NCBI GenBank assembly: GCA_016871575.1
Contig: VHCW01000008.1
Coordinates: 1 to 64,000, forward strand
Length of the DNA: 64,000 nucleotides
Direction: 5' to 3'
DNA from: Verrucomicrobiota bacterium
GTDB lineage: Bacteria > Verrucomicrobiota > Verrucomicrobiia > Palsa-1439
Below the pieces are notes generated by a model, which made no database searches, was not told the DNA's origin, and saw only the letters and a list, made by a program, of their open reading frames with translations. Shown piece after piece: positions 6,821 through 15,955 of this stretch; the stretch's first letter is position 1, and each line of letters begins with the position of its first letter. The translations under genes were made by a program, and so were the position numbers.

Positions 6821-8377
6821 TCACTTCTTTTTCTTGTGTTTGTCTTGCCCGTAAGGCGGTGTGTCAGGCGGTGGGGTGAGACCGTCATCCGGTTGGTTCC
6901 AGAGACGCCACGGGTCGTGGTGACGGCGCATTTCGGACAACAACAACGCCTGCATCTCCTTGAGCTTGCCGGCATACCGCGGATCGCCGGCGAGGTTGAC
7001 TTGATGTTGAGCTGGCTTGACGCCGGTCAGCGCGACAACTTTCGGGTCGTGGTGTTCGGCAAGCAATTCATCGGGATTGTCCTTGAGGTTGAAGAGCTGC
7101 GTCGCCCTCGCCGTGCCATTGTTGCCGTCGTATTCGATGAGTTTCCAATCGCCTTTTCGCACACAACGGATACCGGGTTTGGTGCCGCCGCAGTGAACGC
7201 CGTAGAGGACATCGCGAATCGCGTTTTTCCGGCCTTCGAGCACGGGCTTGAAACTGACGCCTTCGTTTGTTTCCGGGGCAGGGATGACGGCAAGGTCGCA
7301 GAGAGTGGCGAGCACGTCGAGCAGGTAGATGTTGCCGTGCGCGCGGCTGCCGGGCTTGATGCCGGGGCCTTTGACGAGGAACGGTACGCGCCAACTGTGT
7401 TCGTACAGGTTTTGTTTGCCCATCAAGCCGTGTCGTCCGATGGCGATGCCGTTGTCAGCGGTGTAGAAAATGTAGGTGTTGTCCAGTTCGCCCATCGCCT
7501 TGAGACGGTCAAGCACCCGGCCAATCTGGGTATCAATGTTCTCGACGCACGCAAACTCGCGGCCGAGTTCGTTGCGGACGGTGCGTTCGTCGCGGTTGGT
7601 CCAGACGCCGCTGACGTTCGTTTCGTCGCGCTGGTCGGGAAGCAGCGTGGTCGGGAACGGATGAGCGGGCAGGTAGTTCACTGGTAATGGCGGCTGTTTC
7701 GGATGCGACGGCGGCAGGGTATCGGGGTCGGTGTGATTTACGGCGCCGTATTTGGCGAGAAATTCAGGAGTACCATTGCGCGGATCGTGCGGATGCGATA
7801 ACCCGAAGTAAATCAGGAACGGATCGCGATCCCCGGCGGTAGCGCGTTCATTCAGGTAATCGAGCACCTGCTGGACATGCCACGCGGTGCCTTCCGGTTC
7901 CGTGCCGCTGCGCCCCTTGGAATCTCGTCGAACGGTGAACATCTGCTTTGCCGCCTCGTAACTGTTGCCGGGTTTGCCCGTGCGCATCGTTTTGTAACCG
8001 GCGCGATTGAACACAGCGGCGATGGTGTTCTGCTCAAGGCTCGGTGGACAACGCGTCTCTCCCTCGGGCGCGTTCGGCAAATGCCACAGCGTCCGTCCGC
8101 TCTTGATCATGTAACGTGACGGCGTGCAGACCCCGCTGACGAACGCGCCCATGATATAGGCGCCGTCGAAGATCATCCCCTCGCGCGCCAACCGGTCAAT
8201 GGTCGGTGCCTTGAGCGTGGACCGGGGATTGTAGAACTTGAAATCGTAATGCGACTGATCATCCACGATGATGAAAAGAAAATTCGGACGCTTGGCAGTT
8301 GCCGCGCCGGCAGCCAATGGCAAACCGACAAGGGCAATTGCGAGCAAGGCTTGCAGGAGGTAAGTGCGATGTTTCAT
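6821..8377 (-). CDS. Secreted sulfatase, tandem paralogue 2
   Basis: Sulfatase of 518 residues, paralogue of the 5245-6786 product, probably from tandem duplication. A signal peptide ends near residue 26 (GAATAK). The metal pair lies in FIIVDDQSHYD; C84 in VCTPSRYMIKSGR is the formylglycine site. The two paralogues align end to end but have diverged in the region before HPFP/HPFR and in several loops, which may change substrate specificity. Its ATG overlaps the stop of the upstream iduronate-sulfatase-like gene (8374-8377), so the genes are probably co-translated. Confidence 0.93.
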   Translation of the reverse strand: MKHRTYLLQALLAIALVGLPLAAGAATAKRPNFLFIIVDDQSHYDFKFYNPRSTLKAPTIDRLAREGMIFDGAYIMGAFVSGVCTPSRYMIKSGRTLWHLPNAPEGETRCPPSLEQNTIAAVFNRAGYKTMRTGKPGNSYEAAKQMFTVRRDSKGRSGTEPEGTAWHVQQVLDYLNERATAGDRDPFLIYFGLSHPHDPRNGTPEFLAKYGAVNHTDPDTLPPSHPKQPPLPVNYLPAHPFPTTLLPDQRDETNVSGVWTNRDERTVRNELGREFACVENIDTQIGRVLDRLKAMGELDNTYIFYTADNGIAIGRHGLMGKQNLYEHSWRVPFLVKGPGIKPGSRAHGNIYLLDVLATLCDLAVIPAPETNEGVSFKPVLEGRKNAIRDVLYGVHCGGTKPGIRCVRKGDWKLIEYDGNNGTARATQLFNLKDNPDELLAEHHDPKVVALTGVKPAQHQVNLAGDPRYAGKLKEMQALLLSEMRRHHDPWRLWNQPDDGLTPPPDTPPYGQDKHKKKK

Positions 8378-9855
8378 GGGGTCCTTGCGAGATCATTATC
8401 GCGGACGGCGCGGAGTTTGGCGGCGAGCTTCGTCTTGAAGGCGTCCACCGCTGAAAGGAGTTCGGGTTTGGTAGCGAGGTTGGTGTATTGCTTCGGGTCG
8501 GCTGCCATGTCGAACACTTCGATCCCCTTCGATGCGTCTTCGTCGTACTGGATGTAAGCCCACTTGTCCTCGCGCAGCAGGAAACCGCGCCGCGAAGGCG
8601 CTACGCTGAATGCCGCGTCGCGCACTGTGTGTGACGGATCGTCGAATATCCGCGAGATGTCTTTTCCTTGGAGACGCGCGGGCACGTCGAGACCACACAG
8701 GCGCGCGGTGGTGGGGAAGAGGTCGAGCAATTCGACGAGCGAATGGCAGACAGCCGGTTTCTTGCCGGGAACCTTGATGATGAGCGGCACCATCGCCGAC
8801 TCGTCGCGCAGGCTGACCTTCGCCCAGAAATCGTGTTCGCCGAGGTGGTAGCCGTGGTCGCTGGTGAAAATGACGATGGTGTTATCCGCCTGCCCGGATT
8901 GTTCCAGCGCATCGAGCACCTTGCCGACCTGCGCATCCATGTAGGCAACGCACGCGTAGTAGCCGTCGAGCGCCTTCTTCTGGCGGCGCACGTCCATCTG
9001 CATGTTCACGCTGGTCTTGTAATTGATGCCGGCCTTGGGAATGTCGTCCCAATCGCCGGGGACCTTGGGGGGCAACGGCAGTTTGTCGTAAGGCTTGAAC
9101 GGCTCGAAATATTTTCTCGGCGCGACGAACGGCACGTGCGGTCGCACAAACCCAATGGCGAGGAAAAACGGTTTGTTCGCGTGTTTCTGGATCAACTCCA
9201 CTGCTTTCACTGCCGTCTTGCCGTCGGAGTGAACCAGATCATCACCGTCGGCCTCGACCACGACGAATGTGTTGCCGCCCACGACCGGTTTCTTGCCGTC
9301 GGGATTGCCCTCCAAGGTCTCGCCATCGCCCGCCGCCTTCCATTCCGGGCCGGGACTGTTGAACTTCTCCGTCCACGACGCCGGGTCGTCCGCGCCATCG
9401 CCGTTGTTGTGGTTGCGTCCGTCGCCGCCGTACTCGATGCCGCCCGGCACGCCCATGTGGTAAATCTTGCTGACGCGGGCGCTGTAGTAGCCGTTGTTCT
9501 TGAAATGCTGCGCCCACGTCGCGCGGTCGCCAATGGCCGGACGCGGGCTGGTGTAGCCGAGCACGCCGGTCGCGTGCGGGTAATAGCCCGACATGAACGA
9601 CGCGCGCGACGGCCCGCAATAGGTGCCCTGGCACAACACGCGCGTGAAACGGACGCCCTGCGCGGCGAGCCGGTCAATGTTCGGCGTCCGGCAAATCTTA
9701 TTCCCGTAGCACGAGAGCGCTGTGTAGGTCAGGTCGTCCGAGATGATGAACAGGACGTTAGGTTTTGACGGCAAGCCCGCGGCTTGGGCAAGTGCCGATG
9801 AAAGGATCACGGCGAGGAGGACGAGACGAAATGAGTGCTGTCTGATCTGGCTCAT
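8374..9855 (-). CDS. Secreted sulfatase, iduronate-2-sulfatase-like
   Basis: Sulfatase related to iduronate-2-sulfatases: KPNVLFIISDDL, TYCGPSRASFMSG and GFVRPHVPFVAP are characteristic. I place the start at ATG 9855 (MSQIRQHSF, 493 residues) rather than the TTG at 9873, because a normal signal peptide (FRLVLLAVILSSALAQAAG) follows directly. The formylglycine cysteine is residue 80 from that start. TSDHGYHLGEHDFW provides the second metal-binding region. It is the second gene of the operon, 25 bp after the nucleoside hydrolase by this start, and overlaps the next sulfatase by 4 bp. The family acts on uronate or other sulfated sugars; the exact substrate is unknown. Confidence 0.92.
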   Translation of the reverse strand: MSQIRQHSFRLVLLAVILSSALAQAAGLPSKPNVLFIISDDLTYTALSCYGNKICRTPNIDRLAAQGVRFTRVLCQGTYCGPSRASFMSGYYPHATGVLGYTSPRPAIGDRATWAQHFKNNGYYSARVSKIYHMGVPGGIEYGGDGRNHNNGDGADDPASWTEKFNSPGPEWKAAGDGETLEGNPDGKKPVVGGNTFVVVEADGDDLVHSDGKTAVKAVELIQKHANKPFFLAIGFVRPHVPFVAPRKYFEPFKPYDKLPLPPKVPGDWDDIPKAGINYKTSVNMQMDVRRQKKALDGYYACVAYMDAQVGKVLDALEQSGQADNTIVIFTSDHGYHLGEHDFWAKVSLRDESAMVPLIIKVPGKKPAVCHSLVELLDLFPTTARLCGLDVPARLQGKDISRIFDDPSHTVRDAAFSVAPSRRGFLLREDKWAYIQYDEDASKGIEVFDMAADPKQYTNLATKPELLSAVDAFKTKLAAKLRAVRDNDLARTP

Positions 9856-9880
9856 GCGCGCACTTCTTCTCAAATGGCTC

Positions 9881-10999: not shown

Positions 11000-11037
11000 T
11001 GCCACATCAATGAAATAGCTATCTCATTGATGTGGCA
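11000..11037. repeat. 38-nt palindrome, copy 1
   Basis: TGCCACATCAATGA (11000-11013) pairs perfectly with TCATTGATGTGGCA (11024-11037) around a 10-nt centre. No T-run follows on either strand, so it is not a typical terminator. The twin lies at 11326-11363. Confidence 0.85.
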
Positions 11038-11325
11038 AATCACTGATTGAGATGATCGCGACTATTCCAGACCGGCAAGGTGGTAACTAACGCGGAGTAA
11101 ACTGCTTTGGGGATGCAGCCATGCTTGTGCCACACAACAATCCTGCTGCCTCCGGTGTTTGAAGGTGACATTTTATAACACGCGGACTTTGTGGGACTTG
11201 GGTTACTTACAAATGGGGTGTCATACCTGCGGTGACCTCGATAGCCTTTCCGATCTTTGTGTCGCAATGCACTGCGAGGACAATGCTCTCCCAAAAACCT
11301 GTGTCACTATATCCTTTCCACCATC

Positions 11326-11363
11326 TGCCACATCAGTGAAATAGGTATTTCATTGATGTGGCA
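11326..11363. repeat. 38-nt palindrome, copy 2
   Basis: TGCCACATCAGTGAAATA (11326-11343) pairs with TATTTCATTGATGTGGCA (11346-11363); the only non-Watson-Crick position is a G opposite T, which would be a wobble in RNA. The copy differs from copy 1 at a few positions, mainly near the centre. It lies about 80 bp beyond the stop of the minus-strand Gfo/Idh/MocA gene. Confidence 0.85.
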
Positions 11364-11443: not shown

Positions 11444-12841
11444 TTATGCGATTTCCCAACCTTTGCGGTAATTTCCTTTGATGAACGGCCCGGCTTCGGG
11501 CAAGCCGGTGGCCTTCATCGCTGCGGCGTCCCACTCGATCGGTTTCTGCGCGCGCAATGAGAGCACGCCCAGCAGCGCGATCTCCGTCAGATGCGCGCCG
11601 TAGGAGAACGGGCTGACGGTTGAGCCGCTGCCTTTGCACGCTGCGAGCCAGTTGCGGTGATGGTCGCCGGAGGGTTTCTTTTTCACCTCGGTTGTTTTCT
11701 TGTATTCGGCGCGGAGCGCTTCGGGGAAAATGCGCGGATGTCCGCCACCGCCATCGCATTGGATGACGCCTTTTTCGCCGACGAACAGGGAAGCGCGCGT
11801 TGGCAACGGAAATGTTCCCAGCGCCTCGTGCGATGGCGGCATGAGGCCGCCATCATACCACGTCATGCGGACCGACGGGAACGTGTAGTAAATGATGGAA
11901 CCGTGCGGCGCAATCTCGCTGTCCATGACCCCGGCGGCGCGCGCCTCGACGCGCGACGGCAACGGCAGATTGAAGGCGCGCACCGCGCTGTTCATGTCGT
12001 GGCAGGCAAAATCGCCAAGAGCGGTCGTGCCAAAGTCCCAGAAGTCGCGCCACGCGACCGGGAAATAGGCCGTGTGAAACGGGCGCTCGTTGCGCGGCCC
12101 CAGCCACAGGTCCCAGTTCACTCCGTCGGGCACGGGCATTTCCTCAGACGGTTTACCGGTCAGAGTTGGATTCCAGCGCCGGGCGCGAACCCAGACGTGA
12201 ATGTCGCGCACCGTGCCGATGATTCCGTCTTGAATGGCCTTGATCGTTTCGCGCGTGCCGAGCGACGAATGCCCCTGGCTGCCGAGTTGCGTGGCCACGC
12301 CGGTTTCCGCGGCCACTTTGGCGACGTGACGGGCTTCCCAGATGTTGTGCGTGAGCGGTTTTTCGCAATAGACGTGTTTGCCGGCGCGCATGGCGATGAC
12401 GCTGGCGTAAGCGTGCAGATGGTCCGGCGTGGCGATGAGCACGGCATCAATTGCCTTCTCCTTTTCCAGCATCTTGCGGAAATCCACGTAGTCGGCGCAA
12501 CGATAGTTCGGTATTTTCTCCGCGTAATGTTTTTCGATCTCCGCCTTCACCGGCAACCGGCCGCCGATCCCCTTGTAGTAAAACTTGTCCAGGCTGAACG
12601 TCTCCGCCGGGTCGGCAATGGCGACGATCTGGGCGTCGTCGAGTTGGAAAAGATTCCGCACGTTTGTCCGGCCTTGTCCGCCGGTGCCGATGATGGCGAT
12701 GTTGACCTTCTCGCTCGGCGGCACAAAACGCGGTCCGCCGAGGACGTGGCGCGGCAGGAAATTGAATGCCGCCACCGCGGTGGCAGCGGTTTTGAGGAAA
12801 TCACGACGTGATGTGGGGTTGGCTGGTTTCATAAGTTTCAT
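11444..12841 (-). CDS. Tat-exported Gfo/Idh/MocA-family oxidoreductase
   Basis: NAD(P)-dependent oxidoreductase-fold protein (465 residues). A Tat signal opens the protein (TSRRDFLKTAATAVAAF). The Rossmann motif follows at NIAIIGTGGQGR, and HVYCEKPLTHN is the conserved EKP region that contributes the catalytic lysine in the family. The start at 12841 is chosen because its ATG overlaps the TGA of the upstream DUF1080 gene (12838-12841) and directly precedes the Tat motif; the frame stays open to 13048 but that stretch is antisense-like shadow. The family acts on sugars or cyclitols; pairing with DUF1080 suggests sugar oxidation linked to glycoside breakdown. Confidence 0.9.
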   Translation of the reverse strand: MKLMKPANPTSRRDFLKTAATAVAAFNFLPRHVLGGPRFVPPSEKVNIAIIGTGGQGRTNVRNLFQLDDAQIVAIADPAETFSLDKFYYKGIGGRLPVKAEIEKHYAEKIPNYRCADYVDFRKMLEKEKAIDAVLIATPDHLHAYASVIAMRAGKHVYCEKPLTHNIWEARHVAKVAAETGVATQLGSQGHSSLGTRETIKAIQDGIIGTVRDIHVWVRARRWNPTLTGKPSEEMPVPDGVNWDLWLGPRNERPFHTAYFPVAWRDFWDFGTTALGDFACHDMNSAVRAFNLPLPSRVEARAAGVMDSEIAPHGSIIYYTFPSVRMTWYDGGLMPPSHEALGTFPLPTRASLFVGEKGVIQCDGGGGHPRIFPEALRAEYKKTTEVKKKPSGDHHRNWLAACKGSGSTVSPFSYGAHLTEIALLGVLSLRAQKPIEWDAAAMKATGLPEAGPFIKGNYRKGWEIA

Positions 12842-13563
12842 AGTTCCTTGATCGAGATGTTGCGGAATTGGATGAGGCTGGAGGCCGGGGACATTTCGCC
12901 GGTCTTGGGGTTCTTGCCGCCGTGATGCTGGAGGCCGATTCTGCCCTTGGCGGGAACACCGGGAAGCTGGGCGTTTTCGATGACGGTCTTGCCGTTGAGC
13001 ACGACCGTGAGCCGGTCGCCTTTCATTGTGATGAGGAAGCTGTTCCATTCGCCCACGGGTTTGTCGGCCCGGACTTTTGGCGTGACACCGGCGCGGACTT
13101 CGGGCGGCATCGTCTTGTCCATCCGGTACCCATAGACTTCACCGGACCCAATGGGCCAGCACCAGATATTGATCTGCGCTTTGCCGATGCCGCGCAGGTA
13201 AATCCCGGAGTCGGCGTTGGGCGTGGGGATTTTGATTTCGTTGCCCTCGGCGTCGCGCTTGTGAGTGCCGTCGGGCAGCACGATCGGCATCGGATAGAGG
13301 CCGGTCGTCTGTTTGAGCCGCCAATCAATCTTGAGGATGAAATCGCCGTATTCTTTCACAGTCCAAAGATTTTTGTCTCGACCGGGCGCCTCGCTGCACG
13401 CGTCGTAGTCAATGACGCCTTCGAGCACCTTCCAGTGGCCGTTGTCACCTTCGGGGACAGTCCAGTGAGTAAGGTCTTTGCCGTTGAACAGCGAAGTGAA
13501 CCCACTGTCGGCGGCGTGGGCAGCGATGACAGTGGCCAGCAGGAGAACAAGAGTGTGTTTCAT
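12838..13563 (-). CDS. Secreted DUF1080 (3-keto-disaccharide hydrolase-type) protein
   Basis: A 241-residue concanavalin-like fold protein of the DUF1080 family, now associated with 3-keto-glycoside hydrolysis. A signal peptide (MKHTLVLLLATVIAAHA) is followed by the typical opening GFTSLFNGKDLTHW. NADSGIYLRG and GEWNSFLITMKGDRLTVVLN are family blocks. Its stop overlaps the start of the Gfo/Idh/MocA gene by 4 bp. Known systems pair an oxidoreductase that makes a 3-keto sugar with this hydrolase, which fits the arrangement; the actual substrate is not known. Confidence 0.88.
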   Translation of the reverse strand: MKHTLVLLLATVIAAHAADSGFTSLFNGKDLTHWTVPEGDNGHWKVLEGVIDYDACSEAPGRDKNLWTVKEYGDFILKIDWRLKQTTGLYPMPIVLPDGTHKRDAEGNEIKIPTPNADSGIYLRGIGKAQINIWCWPIGSGEVYGYRMDKTMPPEVRAGVTPKVRADKPVGEWNSFLITMKGDRLTVVLNGKTVIENAQLPGVPAKGRIGLQHHGGKNPKTGEMSPASSLIQFRNISIKEL

Positions 13564-13653: not shown

Positions 13654-15546
13654 TCATTTCTTTTTCTTCTTCTGCTTTGGCGCGCTGGGTTTGGCGCCGA
13701 GGGTTTCGATCAGGCGCGGAACGTAACTGTTGTAACGCCCATCGGGTGACGGGCCATTGGGACTGAAGTTGCGTACCGAGGCGAGGATCGGCTCGGCGCG
13801 GTTCCCCAGCGCCTCAATCGCAACAAGGGCGGGAATGGAGACAAGCACGCCGTTCTTGTCCGCCGGTGCCAATTCCTTCAACGTCGCCAGCGCGGCGGCG
13901 CACGACTCCTTGCTGCCGTGAAGTCCGAGCGCCTGCGCGGCGCCAATGCGGACGAACGGCGAAGCGTCATCGAGTGCCTTGCGCAACGCGGCTTCGTGGG
14001 CGGCAACTGCTTGTTGACCGCGCATGAGGAAACCGAGCGCAGCCCAGTAACGCACCGCGCTGTCGGAATCGGTCAGGCGTTTCGCAAGCGCCGGCACGGC
14101 CTCGGCGTCGAGCGAGGAAGCCAGTTCCGCAGTTTCGAGGATGCGATTGAGCGGATAGGCCGCGTCATCGCGCGCCCAATCGTATGGCGCCCGGCCCGGC
14201 GCGCGGCTGTGTAGTTCGCCCTCCGGCACCAGACAAACATCGCGGACCGCGAGCATGTGATCGCGCAAGGCTTTGCTCAGTCGTTGCTTGATCGCCCGGT
14301 GGTCGGACGACCCGGCAAGATTGCGAACCTCGTCTGGATCGGATTGGAGATCGTACAATTCTTCCGGCGCTTTTGGCACGCGCCAGAAAAGCGATTGCGT
14401 TTCCGTGGTCTTGCCTTGATCGAACAACTCGCGCCAGATGCGGGTCGTGGGTGTTTGAAACTGAAATGTGACATGCTGACCTTGGGAAACGTGCGGAAAG
14501 AAATTCCGCAGATAAACATACCGGCCATCCGTCACACTCCGCACAAGGTCGGGGCGCTCGTCCATCCGTCCGCGCTCGCCGAAGATGTATTGCGGCGGCT
14601 TGACCTGATACGGCCCCGCAAACGCGAATCCTTGCAGCCACGACGGCGGACGAACCCCCGCGAGACTGAGCAGCGTCGGCGCAAGATCCACAAAGTTCAC
14701 CAGACGGTCGGATGCGCCACCCGGCTTGTATTCTTTGGGCGCGAGGTGTTTCCACTTCTTCGGGAAATAGACAACCATCGGCACGTGCAACCCGGAGTTC
14801 GACGGCCATCGTTTGGAGCGCGGCATCCCGCTGCCGTGGTCGCCGTAATAGAAGACAATCGTCTCCCCGGCCAGTCCGGCTTCCTCCAATTCCTTGAGGT
14901 GACGCCCGGCATCGGCATCGGCCGCGCTGACCTTGTCGTAATACTGCGCCCAATCCTGACGGACTTCCGGCGTGTCTGGATGGTAGGCTGGCACGCGAAC
15001 GCGGGCGGGATCGGTCACCGCCTGATGCGGTCGAGTGCGGATTTGGCTTTCGTGGCTCTTGGTGGAGTTGAAGATGGCGAAGAACGGTTGGCCGGCAGCG
15101 CGGTTGCGCCAGTGCGCCTTGCCCGAGGACTCATCCCACAGCGTCTTTGGTTTGACGACATTGTAATCTTCCTTGCTGTTGTTGGTGCAATAGTAACCCG
15201 CCTCGCGGAGAAATTCCGGGTAGAGCTTCAACTGGTTGGGCACCGGCACCATCGAGCGCATGTGCAATCCGCCGCTGCTCGACGGATAGACGCCGCTGAT
15301 GATGGCCGTGCGCGCCGGGGCGCAGACCGGGGCGACCGACCAAGCCCGCTTGAAGATCATCCCTTTCGCGGCCAGCGCGTCAACATTGGGTGTGCGCGCC
15401 AGCTTGTCGCCGTGGCAACCCATTTCCGGACCGTGGTCCTCGCTCGTGATCCAGAGGATGTTGGGCTTCGACGTATCAGCGGCGCGCAATGCCGCTGGCG
15501 ACGCCAGCAGCAGGACAGTGAGGGTGAGCAATGGGAGTTTGTTCAT
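13654..15546 (-). CDS. Secreted sulfatase with C-terminal HEAT-like repeats
   Basis: A 630-residue protein. The start at ATG 15546 (MNKLPLLTLTVLLLASPAA) gives a clean signal peptide and an AGGA ribosome site (AAAAGGAACATCAAC); the frame extends 24 codons upstream without support. The sulfatase domain spans about 28-480: metal pair region WITSEDHGPE, formylglycine C75 in VCAPARTAIISG, and YYGDHGSGMPRSKRW. From about 500 to 610 there are helical HEAT/PBS-like repeats (VPALAKRLTDSDSAVRYWAA, LRKALDDASPFVRIGAAQAL). The tail is poly-lysine. Such fusions occur in Planctomycetes and Verrucomicrobia. The repeats may bind a partner or polymer; that is inference. Confidence 0.9.
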   Translation of the reverse strand: MNKLPLLTLTVLLLASPAALRAADTSKPNILWITSEDHGPEMGCHGDKLARTPNVDALAAKGMIFKRAWSVAPVCAPARTAIISGVYPSSSGGLHMRSMVPVPNQLKLYPEFLREAGYYCTNNSKEDYNVVKPKTLWDESSGKAHWRNRAAGQPFFAIFNSTKSHESQIRTRPHQAVTDPARVRVPAYHPDTPEVRQDWAQYYDKVSAADADAGRHLKELEEAGLAGETIVFYYGDHGSGMPRSKRWPSNSGLHVPMVVYFPKKWKHLAPKEYKPGGASDRLVNFVDLAPTLLSLAGVRPPSWLQGFAFAGPYQVKPPQYIFGERGRMDERPDLVRSVTDGRYVYLRNFFPHVSQGQHVTFQFQTPTTRIWRELFDQGKTTETQSLFWRVPKAPEELYDLQSDPDEVRNLAGSSDHRAIKQRLSKALRDHMLAVRDVCLVPEGELHSRAPGRAPYDWARDDAAYPLNRILETAELASSLDAEAVPALAKRLTDSDSAVRYWAALGFLMRGQQAVAAHEAALRKALDDASPFVRIGAAQALGLHGSKESCAAALATLKELAPADKNGVLVSIPALVAIEALGNRAEPILASVRNFSPNGPSPDGRYNSYVPRLIETLGAKPSAPKQKKKKK

Positions 15547-15837
15547 GTTGATGTTCCTTTTTTCACAGACGGTTCGCAACGGAATCGCTTCAATCGACAT
15601 TGCGCTCACACCGGCCAAGCGAAGTCAAGACCGAACTCCCCCTTAAACGACTCCAATATTTCAAGCCCGGTGAAAATTACCCACGCATCACCCACACAGT
15701 GAAGTCTTCAGGCTTGCCGGCCAAAGGGCTTAGCTGGAGTGTGTGGGTTGATGTGTGGGTTTTCGTTCGTTGAATTTCAGAATGTTCTCTATGTTTCATC
15801 GCAACGAGGCTGAATTGATGATTAGAGTAAAACACCC
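15547..15837. other. Intergenic region with a long inverted repeat
   Basis: No gene seen between the sulfatase start and the tRNA terminator. The main structure is the inverted repeat at 15679-15760 listed separately. Confidence 0.5.
15679..15760. repeat. Inverted repeat, ACCCAC-rich arms
   Basis: ACCCACGCATCACCCACACA (from 15679) matches the complement of the block ending at 15760 (ACCCACACATCAACCCACAC) with one substitution and one extra base. Arms of about 22 bp are separated by 37 bp. No second copy is seen in the window. Confidence 0.6.
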
Positions 15838-15875
15838 ACAAAAACAAGGCCCAGAACGCTCGTTCTGGGCCTCAG
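15838..15875 (-). terminator. Rho-independent terminator of the tRNA gene
   Basis: On the minus strand GGCCCAGAAC, loop GAGC, GTTCTGGGCC is a perfect 10-bp stem, followed by TTGTTTTTG. It begins a few bases after the CCA end of the initiator tRNA. Confidence 0.8.
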
Positions 15876-15878
15876 AAT

Positions 15879-15955
<77 letters not shown>

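Follow-up and report, generated by a model that had tools for sequence, protein, structure and literature searches.

Dispersed palindromes in a Verrucomicrobiota genome and a family of PaaX-like genes enclosed by matched palindrome pairs

Two related palindromes in an intergenic region

The window, namely the whole 64-kb stretch of DNA that was analysed, contains a 534-bp intergenic region limited on one side by the stop codon of a gene coding for a Gfo/Idh/MocA-type oxidoreductase (11444-13048, minus strand) and on the other side by the 5' end of a gene for a nucleoside hydrolase (PF01156; 9881-10909, minus strand). Both genes are described as context only; the 3' end of the former is directed towards the intergenic region, and its real start is probably near position 12840. 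Two sulfatase genes (PF00884) are located downstream of the nucleoside hydrolase gene at 6821-9873, on the same minus strand, and a third sulfatase-like ORF is found at 13654-15618, on the opposite side of the intergenic region. At 15847-15872, a perfect hairpin with 12-bp arms (AGGCCCAGAACG..CGTTCTGGGCCT), probably a terminator, adjoins a tRNA-Met gene (15879-15955, minus strand).

Two palindromes of 38 nt each are present in the intergenic region: copy 1 (TGCCACATCAATGAAATAG/CTATCTCATTGATGTGGCA) at 11000-11037, with the core octamer ATAGCTAT at 11015-11022, and copy 2 (TGCCACATCAGTGAAATAG/GTATTTCATTGATGTGGCA) at 11326-11363, with the core octamer ATAGGTAT at 11341-11348. An earlier sequence-only reading had described them as near-identical and 326 bp apart, and this was confirmed, the identity being 93%. 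Copy 1 is built of 19-bp arms in which 18 of the 19 positions are paired, with no loop and a longest unbroken run of 14 bp; copy 2 has 18-bp arms (17/18 paired) around a 2-nt centre. When the window was scanned for palindromes, five reached a score of at least 11, among which copies 1 and 2 ranked first (16 and 15), and block-shuffled windows yielded 0, 1, 0, 0 and 0 palindromes at the same threshold. Furthermore, folding of the single strands was far better than that of dinucleotide shuffles (z = -6.4 for copy 1 and -5.8 for copy 2), none of 200 shuffles being as good.

The 288-bp spacer (11038-11325), whose GC content is 49% versus 61% for the window, had been read as DNA with no clear gene, and indeed no gene-like ORF was found in it. 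Comparison with Rfam gave nothing above the gathering score; the matches obtained were sub-threshold, to miRNA models, and concerned the hairpins themselves, so that the spacer was rejected as a candidate for a small RNA or a riboswitch. A decayed PaaX-like gene was likewise rejected, the tblastn and blastn similarities being unconvincing. The search for the same spacer, which the sequence-only reading had proposed, revealed nothing similar in the source genome, among 12 related genomes or within the PaaX-like elements described below. An empty counterpart of the window locus was also sought in the relatives, which are too distant for this comparison.

Further copies of the window palindrome and a PaaX-like gene

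The source genome, of uncultured Verrucomicrobiota type (5.19 Mb in 257 contigs), was then searched for the palindrome itself. Five further copies were found: two on contig 4 (at 94152 and about 94993), two on contig 21 (at 8783 and 8947) and a single one on contig 27 (at 8048). The palindrome is consequently not always solitary, since second and third pairs exist on contigs 4 and 21. Two other matches, on contigs 10 and 128, differ by one mismatch; they are not palindromic, apparently lie inside coding sequence and were discarded.

The contig-21 copies form a gene-less pair with a 126-bp spacer, located between two convergent genes. The contig-4 copies enclose one gene (L031:3199-3978, minus strand), which encodes a protein of 259 amino acids matching PaaX_M (9e-14, 51.7 bits, gathering score 24) and PaaX_C (2e-5, 25.4 bits, gathering score 22). 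This protein falls below the cut-off of the PaaX equivalog TIGR02277, the phenylacetate repressor (51.7 versus 264.55 bits). At that locus, no phenylacetate degradation gene lies beside it, and its neighbours code for an AraC-type regulator and a PcRGLX-like protein.

The spacers of the window pair and of the contig-21 pair are unrelated, and the window spacer has nothing in common with the interior of the contig-4 element either, which indicates that the window pair is not a simple deletion derivative of one of these. On the other hand, the finding of two pairs among five gene-less copies would be very improbable if copies were scattered independently (by our own estimate rather than by computation), which makes movement as a pair or local duplication likely. 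The spacers, however, share no sequence, and the window pair itself may have moved as one bracketed unit, or may stem from a local duplication or from two insertions.

Matched palindrome pairs around PaaX-like genes

The contig-4 gene is one of 15 PaaX-like genes in the source genome, at least 13 of which lie between two long, matched palindromes that belong to the gene concerned alone: the palindromes to the left and right of a given gene match, and they differ from gene to gene. At L071, for example, CCGGTGAATCAGAGGAACGATCGTTCCTCTGATTCACCGG is identical on both flanks, while the L067 palindrome is TGCCAAAAGCGTGAAATAGGTATTTCACGCTTTTGGCA. In an automatic pair test, in which a score of at least 15 was counted as a pass, 12 of the 15 genes were positive. 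The perfect pair of L071 was overlooked by this test, probably because the reading frame extends into the right palindrome; this palindrome (L071:2877-2916) lies in the PaaX-like frame, where it would specify a portion of an extension at the C-terminus. The pair of L079 is degenerate, and at L069 no palindrome pair was seen.

The same test was applied to 74 related genes from the relatives and from across the phylum, of which 50 had a matched flanking pair and 24 had no detectable one. As a control, the left flank of one gene was combined with the right flank of another, and 13 of 1,454 such combinations passed. For 11 canonical PaaX genes, from E. coli and the records of a plasmid collection, no pair was obtained (scores 9-11).

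The distribution of the PaaX-like genes is patchy. In the set of relatives, 14 of 188 genomes were positive, and with the same query none was detected in the one genus mate searched. Plasmids, phages and viral contigs yielded no relatives, and carriage of the elements by phages or plasmids was discarded as a candidate.

In another genus (g140), sister elements could be compared at orthologous loci. The locus occupied by the L176 element is empty in two species, and that of L185 is empty in four and, in one species, keeps a solitary degenerate palindrome. The empty sites share about 70-85% identity with their occupied counterparts and are too diverged for insertion boundaries and target-site duplications to be read. 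At a further locus, orthologous PaaX-like genes of four species form one clade (support 98/97); the palindrome arms are related in three of them, and those of the fourth are wholly different yet still matched between left and right; in L182, one palindrome copy only is clear. At L176:2243-2521 (G294:C119), three palindromes are present instead of two, and a segment comprising the last part of the PaaX-like gene, the palindrome and some 95 bp of downstream flank has apparently been duplicated in tandem.

Gene-less copies and a common core

When 13 sibling palindromes were used as queries, 24 more gene-less copies were obtained, from 8 of the 13, each of them solitary within about 2 kb. Where any were found, their number ranged from 1 to 6 per palindrome family. 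When the sibling copies and the five gene-less copies of the window palindrome were pooled, 26 of 28 classifiable copies were intergenic. As these sibling copies are single, it may be the palindrome, and not the segment between two of them, that moves as a unit. This bears on the option of the sequence-only reading that came nearest, a non-autonomous mobile element with hairpin ends: the bracketing of a PaaX-like gene and the gene-less pairs and singles agree with it, although its unit may be the palindrome alone.

One orphan palindrome (L166:1991-2064, G000:C31) apparently occupies the apex of an inverted repeat belonging to the host, CCGCCAACCTTTCC...GGAAAGGTTGGCGG, so that the symmetry covers 74 nt; its insertion into a terminator hairpin is possible. 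Insertion into pre-existing host hairpins was considered as a rule and rejected, L166 being striking and not general.

Nearly all palindromes share a common core, AYRNNYRT. In 44 elements (88 half-sites, counted from the centre of symmetry), position 2 was a purine in 88/88 half-sites (A 42, G 46), position 3 a pyrimidine in 84 (C 74, T 10) and position 4 an A in 60. Unlike the core, the arms vary freely, and within families a few arm positions covary on both sides. The window palindromes conform to this core, and no common GTAG head was seen in the aligned copies.

PaaX family members are known transcriptional repressors, and the palindromes might accordingly be operators: each PaaX-like repressor would autoregulate through its flanking pair, and the dispersed copies would define a small regulon, in which the window pair controls the nucleoside hydrolase and sulfatase genes. 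One palindrome of each pair does lie upstream of the PaaX-like gene, the window pair precedes a gene start, and DNA binding alone could account for the co-variation of gene and palindrome. Nevertheless, the second copy is nearly always situated past the stop codon, canonical PaaX genes are devoid of such pairs, and the contig-21 pair separates two convergent genes. The intergenic gene-less copies were distributed over 18 tandem, 4 convergent and 4 divergent gaps (18, 3 and 6 for the gaps of the window), these classes being approximate since they rest on gene calls by codon statistics. Such a distribution, in which no excess upstream of genes is seen, is not that expected of operators. Moreover, near-perfect copies of 38-44 bp need some means of being copied to new places. 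We therefore regard this explanation as unlikely, and the operator pair for the sulfatase operon, suggested by the sequence-only reading, is disfavoured by the same copies in convergent regions.

The hairpins could also act solely in RNA or transcription, as bidirectional terminators, stabilisers of mRNA 3' ends or ends of small RNAs, with no dedicated protein. They are strong, and many copies are found within about 20-90 bp of a stop codon. The lack of a T-run after either window palindrome, already noticed in the sequence-only reading and confirmed from the sequence, argues against such a role, as do the lack of an Rfam family and of conservation in the spacer. It would also leave unexplained why unlinked loci share the sequence and why PaaX-like genes are bracketed by it. 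This explanation is very improbable. The processed RNA released between two hairpins, which had been offered as another option, found no support either, the spacer being unique and unlike that of contig 21.

Predicted structure of the PaaX-like protein

Both PaaX_M and PaaX_C were matched by all 32 aligned members of the family, and CRISPR_Cas2 by 3 of them; the five Pfam families that gave matches did not include Y1_Tnp (PF01797). The invariant residues include W95, D101, R110, G123, Q126, S128, W130 and a DPxLP motif, among which D101, R110, Q126 and S128 occupy Cas2-like positions. An AlphaFold2 model (pLDDT 89) retrieved E. coli PaaX with Foldseek (E = 3e-9), and its middle domain matched Cas2 structures over about 70-95 residues with a probability near 1, the E-values being weak. 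The predicted order of domains is a winged helix, a Cas2-like middle domain and a PaaX C-terminal domain, and the Cas2-like residues may be catalytic.

The protein resembles the PaaX repressors (e.g. E. coli PaaX, PDB 8a39) by its Pfam domains and overall fold. It differs from them by an LQxS motif, absent from the canonical proteins checked, and by the palindrome pair around its gene; by alignment, E. coli PaaX also has neither the Cas2-like Gln nor the Arg, and its Asp is absent or shifted, with no clearly aligned FD. With the Cas2/VapD nucleases, it has in common the predicted fold of the middle domain, an Asp ending the first strand of this domain and a QxS motif. Unlike them, this domain is fused to a winged-helix-like N-terminus and to the PaaX C-terminus, and an unsystematic reading of the loci showed neither Cas1 nor a CRISPR array. 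Short proteins of the phylum (110-196 amino acids, e.g. L126-L129) are matched by the PaaX-like profile over its Cas2-like stretch alone and are probably CRISPR Cas2 proteins.

Comparison with known repeat systems

In layout, the nearest described system is that of RAYTs and REPs. RAYT genes are always found between two inverted REPs with which they co-evolve (PMC2817692), and TnpA-REP processes its cognate REP (PMC8266576). The likeness to the features reported there extends to the single gene between two palindromes, the extragenic dispersal of the same palindrome, the private palindrome of each paralog and the co-evolution of palindrome and gene with maintenance of synteny (PMC2817692, PMC8266576), and further to the patchy distribution. 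In contrast, the gene bracketed here encodes PaaX_M and PaaX_C with a predicted Cas2-like fold, a protein unrelated to RAYTs; the palindromes are mostly longer (about 30-48 bp) with a central AYRNNYRT, and the copy numbers are low. Both the Y1/HUH domain that defines RAYTs and the GTAG head are missing, and the system is therefore not one of theirs.

A RAYT or another Y1/HUH transposase might still move the palindromes as REP-like repeats, the PaaX-like gene being a passenger or cargo regulator. RAYTs are tied to dispersed palindromes (PMC2817692, PMC8266576), and the source genome gives nine Y1_Tnp matches. Four of these nine loci were examined, and palindromes were nearby at only one, L246 (G000:C35:28795-29139), which carries a RAYT-like Y1 transposase gene. 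Its palindromes (GGGAAACCGTTTCAACGGTTTCCC, also AACACCCTGCTTTAGCAGGGTGTT) are different ones, and the AYRNNYRT core is absent from GGGAAACCGTTTCAACGGTTTCCC. As, in addition, the gene that is bracketed is PaaX-like and not Y1, and each paralog has its private palindrome, movement by a Y1/HUH enzyme seems quite improbable.

With MITEs and insertion sequences, the family shares short non-autonomous copies whose ends are those of a gene-bearing copy, and presence or absence at orthologous sites, seen for the sister elements of g140. On the contrary, the ends are here full palindromes, most gene-less copies consist of one palindrome, and no known transposase domain is present. No target duplication was found at the empty sites, which are too diverged for their boundaries to be read.

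A possible palindrome-propagating protein

The window pair is probably best explained as gene-less, REP-like repeat copies whose parent is the contig-4 PaaX-like element, a member of a phylum-wide family, with a protein that would bind and process the palindrome. Each PaaX-like protein would bind a palindrome of its own by means of the shared AYRNNYRT core and the gene-specific arms, and would process it by cutting, copying or inserting, possibly in the form of a hairpin or cruciform. The palindromes would in this way spread into intergenic DNA, singly or in pairs. The bracketing, the dispersal, the common core and the empty sites of sister species are observed, whereas the binding, cutting, copying and mobilisation of palindromes by the PaaX-like protein are inferred.

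Among open-access papers, nothing relevant was found that connects PaaX to palindromes, to mobile elements, to Cas2 or to Verrucomicrobia; one paper, devoted to GTAG/CGTC palindromes, mentions Verrucomicrobia and not PaaX. To our knowledge, no palindrome-dispersing system is based on a PaaX-like protein family, and the single-gene repeat-propagating systems that we know of rely on HUH/Y1 transposases in the case of REPs and on known transposase folds in that of MITEs. The system is apparently new by its protein family, with a REPtron-like logic, and has the look of a selfish repeat system of a kind not described before. PaaX-like proteins with a Cas2-type domain could well form an unrecognised class of palindrome-propagating enzymes, each recognising its private 30-48-bp palindrome by the AYRNNYRT core, keeping a pair of it around its gene and seeding copies between other genes, so that the REPtron logic would have been reinvented independently on the basis of a repressor/Cas2-type fold.

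A single small protein and a 38-bp DNA would suffice for a direct test of this idea. If it is true, bacterial genomes would have a new route to gain dispersed palindromes, through a repressor-like protein with a Cas2 fold. It would also give a function to the PaaX-like expansions of some Verrucomicrobiota, and would bear on the relation of Cas2-type domains to mobile elements.
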